DNA of 64,000 nt. Source: Flexistipes sinusarabici DSM 4947 (lineage in GTDB: Bacteria; Chrysiogenota; Deferribacteres; Deferribacterales; Flexistipitaceae). The notes below the pieces were generated by a model. It did not search any database. It had not been told where the DNA came from and saw only the letters and a program-made list of their open reading frames with translations. The DNA is taken from positions 1,426,001 to 1,490,000 of the forward strand of contig NC_015672.1 of NCBI RefSeq assembly GCF_000218625.1, read 5' to 3'. The position numbers were made by a program, and so were the translations under genes. Shown one piece after another: positions 9,338 through 47,814 of this stretch (its first letter is position 1; every line of letters starts with the position of its first letter).

Positions 9338-10881
9338 GTTAACCCTGAAAAAGGTATATTTTCTTAAAATTTGCCAATATTTTTGTTTATTAAATGTAAA
9401 CTATACATATATTTTGGCATACTTTTTATCCAGAAACACTTCGTTTGCAAAATTTGCTAATTTTTTTGCAATATTATCCATAAATTTTTTGAGAAAAAAT
9501 AAAAGAAAGGCCAGTATCAGCCTTAGGTTATGACCACTTGCCGCCAAAATTGCATTAGCTTTATCTCCCTCTTTGCCTTTCAGATAATTTCTGTCCATCC
9601 GGTTATCTCGCTTAGTATGACCTATCGTCGCCTCAACACAACTTCGTCTTTTCAATAACCTCTTAAAATTAACTTTGAATTTCTTCATACTGCGTGGAAC
9701 TACATGGACTTTTGCATCCCCTCTATAATTGTGCTTCCTGTAACCCAAATCTACCAATATCGTATCTATTGTACCGTTACTACCCAAAAGGGTTTTTGCT
9801 TCACATAAATTCTCTTCTAATGTATGACCGTCATAAGGATTGCCGTGAAATGATTTGCAACTCAGTATAAAATTCTTCTTCAATGTACCAACAAAACCTA
9901 CTTTGTTACCAAACTCATACCTCTTATGGCTCTTGCCCTTGCTAATGCACTCAACCTCTGGACTGTGAAGACTGTAAAGTTTGTTCTTGCTCTTTTTACT
10001 CCGATTCCACAAACTCTCGTAAAATAACTTTAGCTGTTGAAACTCATCCGAATTCCTCAATTCCTCAGGTAAAACCCTTTCTATAGAACGATATAATTTG
10101 CCCATCTTTGTCTTCATCTTTTTTACTGCCTTACCCGCTCTCTTGTACTGTTTCGCATGAACATAGCCACTATATTTCATCAATAGCTTCTTGCCGGAAT
10201 ATTCATGTGTCTCCTTTAACCTTATCTCATGCTTCTTTGAAAATTTCACAAGATATTTGATCATTGTATAAAAAAGTTTTATGTCCGTTGGAAACGTTAT
10301 GTTCTTTTCCTGCACCGTCGTATCTGCAGCTACTTTCTTTACGTCATTCTTATTAAGATAACCACTACGAAAAGCAGTGTTAATTGTCTCCTCTAAAAAC
10401 TTCAACAAATCTTCTTCTTTTAAACGATTCCGAAATCTTGTCATGCTGGTTGGATTTATCGGCACCTTTGTCTGGAATACCTTTTCTCCAGTGAAGTACT
10501 GCCAGTAAGGGTTTTCTTTCCAGCCATGCACCACGTCTTCATCACTCAAATTGTACGTGTATTTCAAATAATGAAACCCAACCATCATACGTATTGGAAT
10601 TCCTGGGCGACCATCGTTACGGTGATAAAGACTGCCAAATTCTTTCTCAAAATATTCCCAGTCTATTTTATCTGCTAATTGTATTAATGGATGTTTCATA
10701 TCTATAATGTTAACAAGCAGTGGTTCTAAAAGCTCTTGTGTCGTCGAATCTTGCTTCTTAGGACGCATATAATCCCCCGGGTTTTTTGCTTATTCCTTTA
10801 CTTTTCTGTGGGATTACTTTAGCATATTTCCTTGGTTAACTCAAGTATTATCAAATAGTTATCTAGTTTCTCAGGGCTAAC
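9338..10881 (-). mobile_element. IS5-family insertion sequence, copy 2, inside csm1
   Basis: 1544 bp, same length and sequence as copy 1 but opposite orientation. The flanking 7-bp direct repeat TAAATTA (9331-9337 and 10882-10888) is a target duplication made of csm1 sequence. Ends are GTTAACCCTGA at 9338 and its inverted partner ending TCAGGGCTAAC at 10881. The perfect duplication and near-identity to copy 1 indicate a recent insertion. Confidence 0.92.
9401..10768 (-). CDS. IS5-family DDE transposase (copy 2)
   Basis: A 455-residue transposase matching copy 1 except for two substitutions noticed by eye (Ile at about 59, Lys at about 428). The reading frame is intact and transcribed in the same direction as csm1, so IS transcription could feed csm2-csm5. 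Domain layout is as in copy 1: DUF772-type N-terminus, then the DDE region. Confidence 0.9.
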   Translation of the reverse strand: MRPKKQDSTTQELLEPLLVNIIDMKHPLIQLADKIDWEYFEKEFGSLYHRNDGRPGIPIRMMVGFHYLKYTYNLSDEDVVHGWKENPYWQYFTGEKVFQTKVPINPTSMTRFRNRLKEEDLLKFLEETINTAFRSGYLNKNDVKKVAADTTVQEKNITFPTDIKLFYTMIKYLVKFSKKHEIRLKETHEYSGKKLLMKYSGYVHAKQYKRAGKAVKKMKTKMGKLYRSIERVLPEELRNSDEFQQLKLFYESLWNRSKKSKNKLYSLHSPEVECISKGKSHKRYEFGNKVGFVGTLKKNFILSCKSFHGNPYDGHTLEENLCEAKTLLGSNGTIDTILVDLGYRKHNYRGDAKVHVVPRSMKKFKVNFKRLLKRRSCVEATIGHTKRDNRMDRNYLKGKEGDKANAILAASGHNLRLILAFLLFFLKKFMDNIAKKLANFANEVFLDKKYAKIYV

Positions 10882-41755: not shown

Positions 41756-42820
41756 TTAAAAATTTGCACTAATATCAGAAATCTTTATATTGTCGTTTAA
41801 CTTTTCAAAGCGATAACCGAAATTATTGCATTTACTACAACCTTCCCCATCACAGGAGCCGCATTTTGAAGGAATATAGCCTGCATAAAGAATTTCCCCG
41901 GCGTCATCGGCTGAGTTAACCGGTACATTATCTACAATATTCACTGAATTCTCATAATAACAAAAGGAGTTGAACGAATAATACGGGTACCCTTTTACTG
42001 GCAAATCGCTTCTGAAAATCATTTCTGAGCCATGGAAATCTAAATCTGTAAAAGCCGCACCTTCTGCTTTCCCAAGGCCAAAACTTCCCAAAACAACCGG
42101 GACTTCAATCTTTGCTGATTCGGAGATTAGGGGATAAATCTGGAAGAAAAAACCATTTTCCAGGTGGTATTGATTGTAAAAATAATGAATATCCATCTCC
42201 TCAAGTGCCTGCATTATCTGATACTGACTGTATTTTTCCGCCAGGACAGTGTAATTTTGTAACAAATTAAATCCGAATATGTTTATTTCCAAAACACCGG
42301 AATGACCGCAAAAATCCAGCCTGTAGAAAGAAGTGTTCGAAATATCCTTTATGAGTTTATCCAAGATATTTACAAGCTTATTTTTATTGCCCTCTGAAAG
42401 GACTGATTTTAATATCCTTTCAATTTTTTCGCCGTGTGAAACGGTTAAGTTGACACTTTTTTTTGTAATTTCCCTCATCTTCTCAAAAGCTTTCAAGTTA
42501 AAAGGGTCGTCGGTAACAATAGTTATAGATTCGTCGCTCTCGTATATAGGCAAAATACGGTTATTAACCAGTAATTCACTGCTGTATTTACGGATAAGAG
42601 TAGTATCGATATTAATGTCATCCAATATAATAAAGGGCTCATCCACCTGTCTGCTGAGTATATAGTCTATCTCATCCTGTTTGACTTTCCCCAGTTGAAC
42701 AAGTGCCTGCCCCAGTTTCACACCATTTTCTTTCTGAAACTCCAAAGCTTCATCCAGATCTGCTTCAGTAATCATCTTATAATCCAATAAAAGACTGCCG
42801 ATGTTTTTTCTTTTATTCAT
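41756..42820 (-). CDS. MshEN-domain protein without ATPase, C-terminal Cys cluster
   Basis: About 354 residues. NIGSLLLDYKMITEADLDEAL through QDEIDYILSRQ is an MshEN/GspE N-terminal domain, followed by PIYESDESITIVTDDPFNL. The ATPase domain of PilB/GspE is absent; instead there is a region of unknown fold and a final CGSCDGEGCSKCNNFGY cysteine cluster, like the zinc site of PilB-type proteins. It may be a c-di-GMP-binding partner of the pilus machine. Start: second ATG (42820), 6 nt after GGAGG. Confidence 0.7.
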   Translation of the reverse strand: MNKRKNIGSLLLDYKMITEADLDEALEFQKENGVKLGQALVQLGKVKQDEIDYILSRQVDEPFIILDDINIDTTLIRKYSSELLVNNRILPIYESDESITIVTDDPFNLKAFEKMREITKKSVNLTVSHGEKIERILKSVLSEGNKNKLVNILDKLIKDISNTSFYRLDFCGHSGVLEINIFGFNLLQNYTVLAEKYSQYQIMQALEEMDIHYFYNQYHLENGFFFQIYPLISESAKIEVPVVLGSFGLGKAEGAAFTDLDFHGSEMIFRSDLPVKGYPYYSFNSFCYYENSVNIVDNVPVNSADDAGEILYAGYIPSKCGSCDGEGCSKCNNFGYRFEKLNDNIKISDISANF

Positions 42821-44034: not shown

Positions 44035-44062
44035 TTGACAACTTATTTGATTTTGCTATATT
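44035..44062 (+). promoter_or_regulatory. Strong sigma-70 promoter with no downstream ORF
   Basis: Perfect TTGACA (44035-44040), 16-bp spacer, TATATT (44057-44062). Predicted start at about 44069. The only feature before the terminator is a C-rich non-coding stretch. Confidence 0.7.
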
Positions 44063-44068
44063 AGGGAT

Positions 44069-44147
44069 TAATATAAAGAATTAGCAAGACCCTCCTCCCC
44101 CTCCTTAAAATATATGGAGATTGCCGGCCAAGGGAGCCGGCTTTTTT
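44069..44147 (+). ncRNA. Candidate small RNA with C-rich anti-Shine-Dalgarno-like segment
   Basis: About 79 nt between a near-consensus promoter and a rho-independent terminator, with no start codon followed by an ORF. The single-stranded part contains ACCCTCCTCCCCCTCCTT (44089-44106), which would pair with GGAGG ribosome binding sites, a common seed type in bacterial trans-acting sRNAs. No known family recognised. Confidence 0.55.
44121..44147 (+). terminator. Rho-independent terminator of the candidate sRNA
   Basis: GCCGGC (44123-44128) pairs with GCCGGC (44136-44141) across a 7-nt loop and is followed immediately by six T residues. Confidence 0.8.
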
Positions 44148-44290: not shown

Positions 44291-44788
44291 ATGAGTGAAA
44301 AGTTATATCTGCCACATTCAACCAGATGCTTTATATGCGGCTCAGAAAACCCTGTGGGTTTGAAACATATTTTTTACGTTGCAGGAGACTCCGTATCTTC
44401 GGATATTCTTATTCCTGACGGTTTCAACGGCTTTAAAGATATTGTCCACGGAGGCATAGTTTCCGCTCTTCTGGATGAAACCATGGGATGGAACGCATTT
44501 GTTTTCGGTAAAGGACAAAACCTTTATTTCACAAGGGATCTCAATGTTAAATTCAGAAAGTCTCTTAATACCGATACCCCCTACCTCTTAAAAACAGAAT
44601 TTATTTCCGAAAAAAGGATGTTTGCCATCACCAAAGGCTATATAATAGATAAAGATAATAATATTTATGCCGAAGCCGAAGGAAAATTTATAGAAATTCC
44701 CGATGAAAAAATGCAGGAAACAAAACAGTACCTTCTTTTCGACAACAACAAAAACTACCACCCTAAGACAACAATATTTCGCAAATAA
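44291..44788 (+). CDS. PaaI/4HBT-family hotdog thioesterase
   Basis: 165 residues. Hotdog fold with VHGGIVSALLDETMGW (about 56-71), the catalytic motif of PaaI-like thioesterases, preceded by CFICGSENPVGL, a short Cys pair common in this subgroup. It probably hydrolyses acyl-CoA thioesters; substrate unknown. It converges with the cytochrome operon, ending 1 bp before it. Confidence 0.8.
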   Translation: MSEKLYLPHSTRCFICGSENPVGLKHIFYVAGDSVSSDILIPDGFNGFKDIVHGGIVSALLDETMGWNAFVFGKGQNLYFTRDLNVKFRKSLNTDTPYLLKTEFISEKRMFAITKGYIIDKDNNIYAEAEGKFIEIPDEKMQETKQYLLFDNNKNYHPKTTIFRK

Positions 44789-46495: not shown

Positions 46496-47814
46496 ATGAG
46501 CAAACTAAACTACAAATTAGAAAGAAGCAATGATAAAATTACCCCATTTGGTGGAATATCTTTGTTAATCCCACTGTTAGATAAGATGGGCATCCGAGAT
46601 TTCCTTGATAAAGAACTTGATCATCCAGGCTCTAACAGAGGCAAACCGCCATCTTCTAAAATAATTCCTGTTATTCTATCGATGATATGCGGTGGCAGGA
46701 GTTTCAGTGATATCGACAAACTTTCTTTTGATAAGGTTTTAAGCTATATCAGCGGTATTGAAGATATCCCGGATAGTTCCAGCATCAGTAGGTATTTTTC
46801 AAAAACAGAAAGCATGTTGGATGAAGTAGCAGTTAATAAAACAATCAGCAAACTGGGCAGTCTCAACTATAAAATAGTGAAAGATGCTTTAAAAAGAGAA
46901 AATTTATTTTCAGTTACTCTGGATCAGGACGCCACTTATGCAAAGGTGTATAAAAGGGATGCCAAGTATTGTTATAAGAATTTAAAGCATACAGTTCTAT
47001 GACGTGTTTTATAGGAGAGAGCGGTTATTGTATAGACGAGGAATTTCGGGAAGGCAATGTAAGTGCCCAGGTTGGCATACTTGAACAGCTTCAGAGAGTC
47101 CATAAATATCTTGAATCTTGTGGTATAGAAGTATCCAATGTTCGTAATGATTCTGCCGGTTACCAATCTAAAGTATTGGATTACTGTTTTGATAACGATT
47201 TAACGTTTTTTATAGGAGGTGACCTTGATAGTTCAGTTCGTAAAGGAATAAATCATATACCATCTGATTCATGGAAAAGATATAGAAATAGGTATGGAGA
47301 TGAAAGCGATAATGAGGAAATAGCAGAGTTTATTCACTGTATGGAAAACACTAAGGAGAGTTTCCGTATAATAGTTGTTCGTAAGAAAATTGAGTCAGAC
47401 AACCCCACAGTTCCGGAGCTTCTTGGTGATAAATATGAATATCGTGTTATTGCAACTAATTCAAAACTGGATGCAGAAAAGGTGGTACATTTTTATAATT
47501 TGCGCGGTGTTTGTGAATACAATATAAAAGAAGCAAAGTATGGTTTTAATTTAAAAAGCTTTCCTTCGGGTAATCTTGCGGGTAACGGCTTATGGTTTAA
47601 GACAGGAATACTGGCATATAATCTGATTATGTACCTCAAACGAATCATAATGGGAGGTGTCTATAAAAATAAAGAGATGGGTAGTATACGTTATCAGGTC
47701 ATATCTATAGCGGGGAAACTTGTGTCCCACGGCGGTAATAAACTGAAGTTGTGCTGCAGTGTGGATATGTTCAAAAAAATGGAACAGTGGAGGACAGAAT
47801 GTTTAACGTTGTGA
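46496..47814 (+). pseudogene. IS1380-like transposase with a frameshift
   Basis: Two overlapping frames (46496-47002 and 46999-47814) together give a transposase of about 438 residues. The first part has KITPFGGISLLIPLLDKMGI and VTLDQDATYAKVY (first catalytic Asp region). The second has YEYRVIATNSKLDAEKVVHF, YNLRGVCEYNIKEAKYGF (catalytic Glu) and LWFKTGILAYNLIMYLKR. The shift lies near 46976-46990, where FKAYSSM is in the other frame. IS1380 elements are not known to use programmed frameshifting, so this is probably inactive. Confidence 0.75.

Follow-up and report, generated by a model that had tools for sequence, protein, structure and literature searches.

A predicted C-rich small RNA gene with an anti-Shine-Dalgarno-like tract is conserved in Hfq-encoding Deferribacterales alongside a second C-rich RNA family

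The closest described systems are the alpha-r14/NfeR1 sRNAs, which are related to the cuckoo family and whose ultraconserved anti-Shine-Dalgarno (SD) loop motif is the nonamer CCUCCUCCC; NfeR1 has a sigma-70-type promoter (PMC10746234, PMC3927594), and in CcsR-like cuckoo members linkage to a DUF1127 protein is frequent (PMC10253847). In Firmicutes, FsrA, RoxS/RsaE and CsfG pair with target RNAs through C-rich regions, and in Bacillus a G-rich sponge, RosA, in turn binds C-rich sRNAs (PMC8216469). Here we describe a locus with the same nonamer in Flexistipes sinusarabici DSM 4947, at positions 44035-44147 of the 64,000-nucleotide stretch of DNA that was analysed (the window), which encodes a predicted sRNA (class I), and a second, differently built RNA family (class II) that shares the motif. 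As in alpha-r14, NfeR1 and CcsR, the motif lies in unpaired or loop regions of small, putatively trans-encoded RNAs, and class I resembles NfeR1 in having a sigma-70-type promoter. However, the alpha-r14/cuckoo RNAs of Alphaproteobacteria repeat the motif in each of three or four hairpins, whereas class I and class II come from a different phylum, have no Rfam match and hold one motif per RNA, which class I places in an open tract and class II in the loop of the terminator hairpin. A Pfam scan found no DUF1127 among six proteins flanking class I. The best reading of this comparison is that class I and class II would work like alpha-r14/cuckoo sRNAs while not being members by the features tested.

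By the same kind of comparison, FsrA and RoxS of Bacillus are functional analogues, although FsrA, RoxS/RsaE and CsfG carry several C-rich regions per RNA and have another architecture. With Hfq-dependent sRNAs of the enterobacterial type, the RNAs described here share a terminator U tail (U6-U8), an AU-rich stretch near the terminator and the presence of Hfq in the same genomes; they differ in their C-rich, 16S-like seed, and Hfq binding is a prediction here. We found no earlier description of class I or class II in Rfam or the open-licence literature, and no paper on sRNAs of the phylum in the latter.

The elements of the locus are as follows:

44035..44062, + strand: sigma-70-type promoter TTGACA-N16-TATATT, read from the sequence, 11 of 12 consensus matches
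44069..44147, + strand: predicted sRNA of about 75-80 nt, start inferred to within a few nt of 44067-44070
44090..44106, + strand: C-rich anti-Shine-Dalgarno tract CCCTCCTCCCCCTCCTT, the best-kept part of the transcript
44101..44119, + strand: small hairpin CUCC (44101-44104) / GGAG (44116-44119) from RNA folding, partly hiding the 3' half of the C-tract
44123..44147, + strand: intrinsic terminator, stem-loop GCCGGCCAAGGGAGCCGGC then TTTTTT, from a terminator scan and compensatory changes

The promoter consists of TTGACA (44035-44040), a 16-nt spacer and TATATT (44057-44062) with TG directly 5' of the -10, and it ranks first of 23 promoter-like sites in the 4.5 kb scanned. The predicted start of the sRNA follows from its distance to the -10, and the predicted 3' end is the end of the T run behind the terminator stem, which has six GC pairs. 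Positions 44089-44106 read ACCCTCCTCCCCCTCCTT, within which 44091-44099 is CCTCCTCCC and 44100-44106 is CCTCCTT. A promoter-terminator pair of this kind, enclosing a C-rich stretch and ending in a GC stem and six T, was what an earlier note on this DNA had described; all of these elements lie where it placed them. Taken alone, a promoter-like site next to a terminator-like site is weak evidence, because 15.5 promoter-like and 2.9 terminator-like sites are expected by chance per 4.5 kb and the single-sequence fold of the sRNA is ordinary (z -0.3). The class I gene is single-copy in the genome. A 4HBT thioesterase gene (44291-44788) follows on the same strand, with its start codon about 140 nt past the T run. 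A small ORF in the 3' part of the sRNA (ATGGAGATTGCC...TAA) was rejected, its ATG being absent from the f3 and f8 sequences (families of the comparison are labelled f1 to f10). Elsewhere in the window, two 455-aa frames in opposite orientation with identical upstream sequence (871-2238, +, and 9401-10768, -) are probably two copies of one insertion sequence, and a transposase-like gene at 46496-47814, split into the overlapping frames 46496-47002 and 46999-47814, is probably frameshifted.

The earlier note had staked its proposal on conservation in related genomes and suggested a covariance search in relatives. By blastn against 51 genomes of the phylum we obtained 12 clear homologues (E of 4e-8 or better), which are all 12 genomes of families f1-f4. 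A first covariance model added both f8 genomes and a second added 8 of the 12 f5 genomes (G020-G023 and G025-G028), so that class I is carried by 22 genomes in six families of Deferribacterales, with model E-values down to about 1e-22. This conservation across genomes makes the locus more than a chance arrangement. In 21 homologues the contig covers both promoter and terminator in full; each of these, those of f5 and f8 included, has TTGACA, and every complete homologue retains the terminator hairpin. We aligned 11 of the sequences from the -35 on, leaving out the twelfth, G007, which a contig end truncates. TTGACA does not vary among them; the C-tract, the terminator, UUAAAAUAUAU and the -10 bases TATA are retained as well, and the parts that drift are the 5' leader and the spacer. 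Compensatory changes were found in 3 of 11 consensus pairs, all three in the terminator (GC to AU, GC to UG and CG to UA). Deviations from the CCUCCUCCC motif occur in G015, in G020-G023 and in the class II copies of f2. In the class I promoters of f2 (L005, L007 and L010) a perfect palindrome, GTTTAATATATTAAAC, overlaps the -10 and is a possible repressor operator.

The genes around class I vary. The neighbours include a TPR/MshEN/pilT operon in f1 and f3; in f2 and f4 they include, as identified by eye and not at every locus, a meaB-like gene that is sometimes accompanied by a SAHase-like gene; in the congener G015 a MarR-like gene and then TPR replace the thioesterase, and no 4HBT thioesterase was found within 15 kb around the sRNA. 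Because of this variation we regard class I as an independent gene rather than a leader, and the presence of conserved promoter, C-tract and terminator amid changing flanking genes bears out, at the level of sequence, the C-rich sRNA gene that had been proposed. Class I thereby shows the general characters of a trans-encoded sRNA: its own promoter and intrinsic terminator, conservation, an intergenic position and independence of its neighbours.

Covariance models detected no class I in any of the 20 f6/f7 genomes, and neither class was found in f9 and f10, which lie outside the order; the weak model matches inspected in f6, f7, f9 and f10 were plain terminators or unrelated units. A pattern search of 290 genomes (239 outside the phylum) found the class I core only in Deferribacterales, the pattern being exact and therefore liable to miss distant relatives. 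Viral contigs and plasmids gave no match, nor did Rfam at gathering score, and a relaxed Rfam search with representatives of both classes gave one weak, unrelated match only. Dispersed copies of CCTCCCCCGCCCTCCTT in G020 and G022 look like palindromic intergenic repeats rather than homologues. A palindromic intergenic repeat unrelated to the sRNA, CCTCCCCCGCCCTCCTTTGCAAAAGGAGGGGG, is found at G022:C1:761724-762184 and scattered in G020 and G022, and includes a tandem array with a 111-bp period.

Weak model matches also led us to class II, a different unit in which the C-rich motif (CCCUCCUCCCC or CCCTCCTCCCC) sits in the apical loop of a two-helix terminator hairpin. This hairpin has the form CCCGGCTA...TAGCCGGG followed by T6-8, with an inner stem such as TGCTTTA/TAAAGCA and the loop TCCCTCCTCCCC(CCT). 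A model built from five members detected class II in each of the 26 f1-f5 and f8 genomes (E of 2.3e-10 or lower), including the F. sinusarabici copy outside the window:

G000:C1:727468-727536, minus strand: class II copy (L308), from the class II model

Two-sided changes affect 10 of 16 class II pairs against 3.5 expected from shuffles, a count from an alignment fitted to the model that leans towards structure and in which the inner helix of the f2 rows is visibly out of register; sliding the register destroys the pairing. Class II often lies directly downstream of another gene on the same strand (by eye, citramalate-synthase-like in f4 and f5, panD-like in f3 and glycosyltransferase-like in f1), so some copies may double as the terminator of that gene; a promoter-like sequence precedes it in several genomes, again by eye. 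In f8, class I and class II adjoin on opposite strands and are convergent (G049:C4, L090; G050:C31, L091). A promoter with a two-hairpin sRNA-like unit that has an AAAGCAT/ATGCTTT stem and lacks the C-rich loop was seen in the Hfq-lacking family f7 (G039:C9:24963-25085, minus strand, L274).

The distribution of both classes follows that of Hfq, which all 26 f1-f5 and f8 genomes encode and all 20 f6 and f7 genomes lack. Every genome with class I and/or class II (26) encodes Hfq, and the class II model found nothing in the nine Hfq-lacking f6/f7 genomes scanned with it; Hfq is also encoded in f9 and f10. This pattern fits Hfq-dependent RNAs that were lost together with Hfq, and it is phylogenetically confounded, since a single joint loss, or two, may account for f6 and f7. 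Neither class II nor the co-occurrence with Hfq figured in the earlier note. In many genomes, one frame of about 170-200 aa with two Hfq-like stretches occurs besides the normal hfq (for example G000:C1:322172-322603, minus strand) and apparently encodes a tandem-Hfq protein.

The 3' end of the F. sinusarabici 16S rRNA reads GGATCACCTCCTTTCTA and contains CCTCCTT; the CCTCCTT of the sRNA therefore mimics the anti-SD. As RNA, the C-tract holds CCUCCUCCC, which is complementary to AGGAGG-type sites extended by G, plus CCUCCUU. Folding of 17 class I RNAs with inferred ends predicts that the two halves are displayed differently: the 5' nine bases are mostly unpaired (0.56-1.0), as is the motif at 44091-44099, whereas pairing prevails over the 3' six bases (unpaired 0.15-0.47) in all but f8 (0.89-1.0). 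In most homologues the predicted fold thus leaves CCCUCC(U)CCC, the 5' half, accessible and encloses the 3' CCUCCUU. The hairpin that buries it is weak and is missing in f8, and its partner strand varies, being GGAG or GGAGG downstream in some sequences and AAGGA upstream in f3 (AAGGA can also be read in the f5 copies of G020-G023). With the partner changing from family to family, the 5' half appears to be kept on display by different means. This arrangement suggests that CCUCCUCCC is probably the portion that acts as seed, and that only some genes would belong to the regulon.

The earlier note had read the complementarity of the C-rich stretch to GGAGG sites as the mark of a global translational repressor. 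GGAGG indeed precedes 10 of the 56 predicted genes of the window (18%, against 0.6% of random 22-mers), and many SDs could pair with the sRNA over about 5-7 bp. As judged from the sequences, this complementarity is real but generic, as it is automatic for any C-rich RNA. The global part of the claim gained no clear support: the 9-mer AAGGAGGGG is not enriched genome-wide (13 against 14 for the reversed control), its sites number about 10 per genome with few at start codons, no mRNA start region was found complementary to the whole C-tract, and a comparison of SD matches across genomes found no conserved target set. The best single lead, suggestive and chosen post hoc, is an actP-like symporter, whose SD in f1 (CTAAAGGAGGGGGAATTTATG) holds a 10-nt match, AAGGAGGGGG. 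The SD contrast between f1-f4 and f5 for this gene (p 0.0075) is invalid, because f5 carries the RNAs too, the genomes are related and the gene was picked afterwards. Two further candidates were rejected: the SD of the MshEN gene beside the sRNA (window position 42820) lies inside an upstream coding region and is not kept in G015, and TTAATAAGGGGGAGGAG, with eight copies in the genome, is not a target SD, the inspected copy lying inside a transposase-like reading frame.

Several other explanations of the locus were weighed. That promoter-like site, C-run and terminator are juxtaposed by chance and have no RNA function gains something from the expected site numbers and the ordinary fold given above, and we consider it scarcely credible, as it is contradicted by order-wide conservation that extends to the promoter and by the model E-values. 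A cis-acting leader or attenuator of the 4HBT thioesterase gene would account for the shared strand and the short distance between T run and start codon; it is very unlikely, because families, and even members of the genus, have different genes downstream, the relative L032 has the thioesterase with no C-tract near it, and the terminator hairpin is kept in every complete homologue.

Two alternatives would keep an RNA and change its partner. C-rich ligands of proteins such as Rho and CspA-like proteins are long, pyrimidine-rich and largely unpaired. The tract is likewise long and pyrimidine-rich with a 5' half predicted to be largely unpaired, so class I could, instead of acting as an antisense RNA, serve as a decoy for a protein such as Rho or a cold-shock-type factor that binds C; yet a ligand recognized by composition would be expected to drift, whereas the exact order CCCUCCUCCCC is kept in two unrelated scaffolds and set in a defined apical loop in class II, and the CCTCCTT in common with 16S points to base pairing, which makes a decoy improbable. 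Class I could also be a sponge, titrating G-rich RNAs or other sRNAs and leaving mRNAs unrepressed; this has a precedent in RosA, with which C-rich RNAs do pair (PMC8216469), and several class I members hold an internal GGAG(G) complementary to the shared seed. This, too, we judge unlikely, if a little less so than the decoy: being C-rich, the two classes are poorly suited to pairing with one another, and no conserved G-rich partner RNA turned up in searches aimed at other questions.

We therefore favor, with a probability of roughly 0.74, the reading that a single-copy gene with transcription of its own lies at 44035-44147 and encodes a trans-acting, Hfq-binding sRNA that represses mRNAs with G-rich SDs, with class II overlapping in its targets. 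In the proposed mechanism, the strong sigma-70 promoter would drive synthesis of a transcript about 75-80 nt long that exposes the C-rich seed CCCUCCUCCC and ends in a terminator with a U tail. Hfq would bind this RNA and assist pairing of the seed with the G-rich SD regions of a set of candidate mRNAs, so that 30S binding would be blocked, and the CCUCCUU part, mostly held in the weak hairpin, may limit indiscriminate SD binding. Class II, which likewise presents CCCUCCUCCCC, though in the loop at the tip of its terminator hairpin, would be expected to act on an overlapping set of targets. More tentatively, and at a little short of even odds, the two RNAs may form a system ancestral to the Hfq-bearing Deferribacterales, with a shared 16S-mimicking seed and joint control of mRNAs with G-rich SDs, kept or lost with Hfq, in which CCUCCUCCC was reached independently of Alphaproteobacteria.

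The recurrence of CCUCCUCCC outside Alphaproteobacteria offers a case in which convergence of anti-SD seeds can be tested, and the C-tract, with one half on display and the other hidden, bears on how an SD-complementary RNA may spare overall translation. Class I and class II, order-wide and tracking Hfq, would provide a first handle on riboregulation in this phylum.
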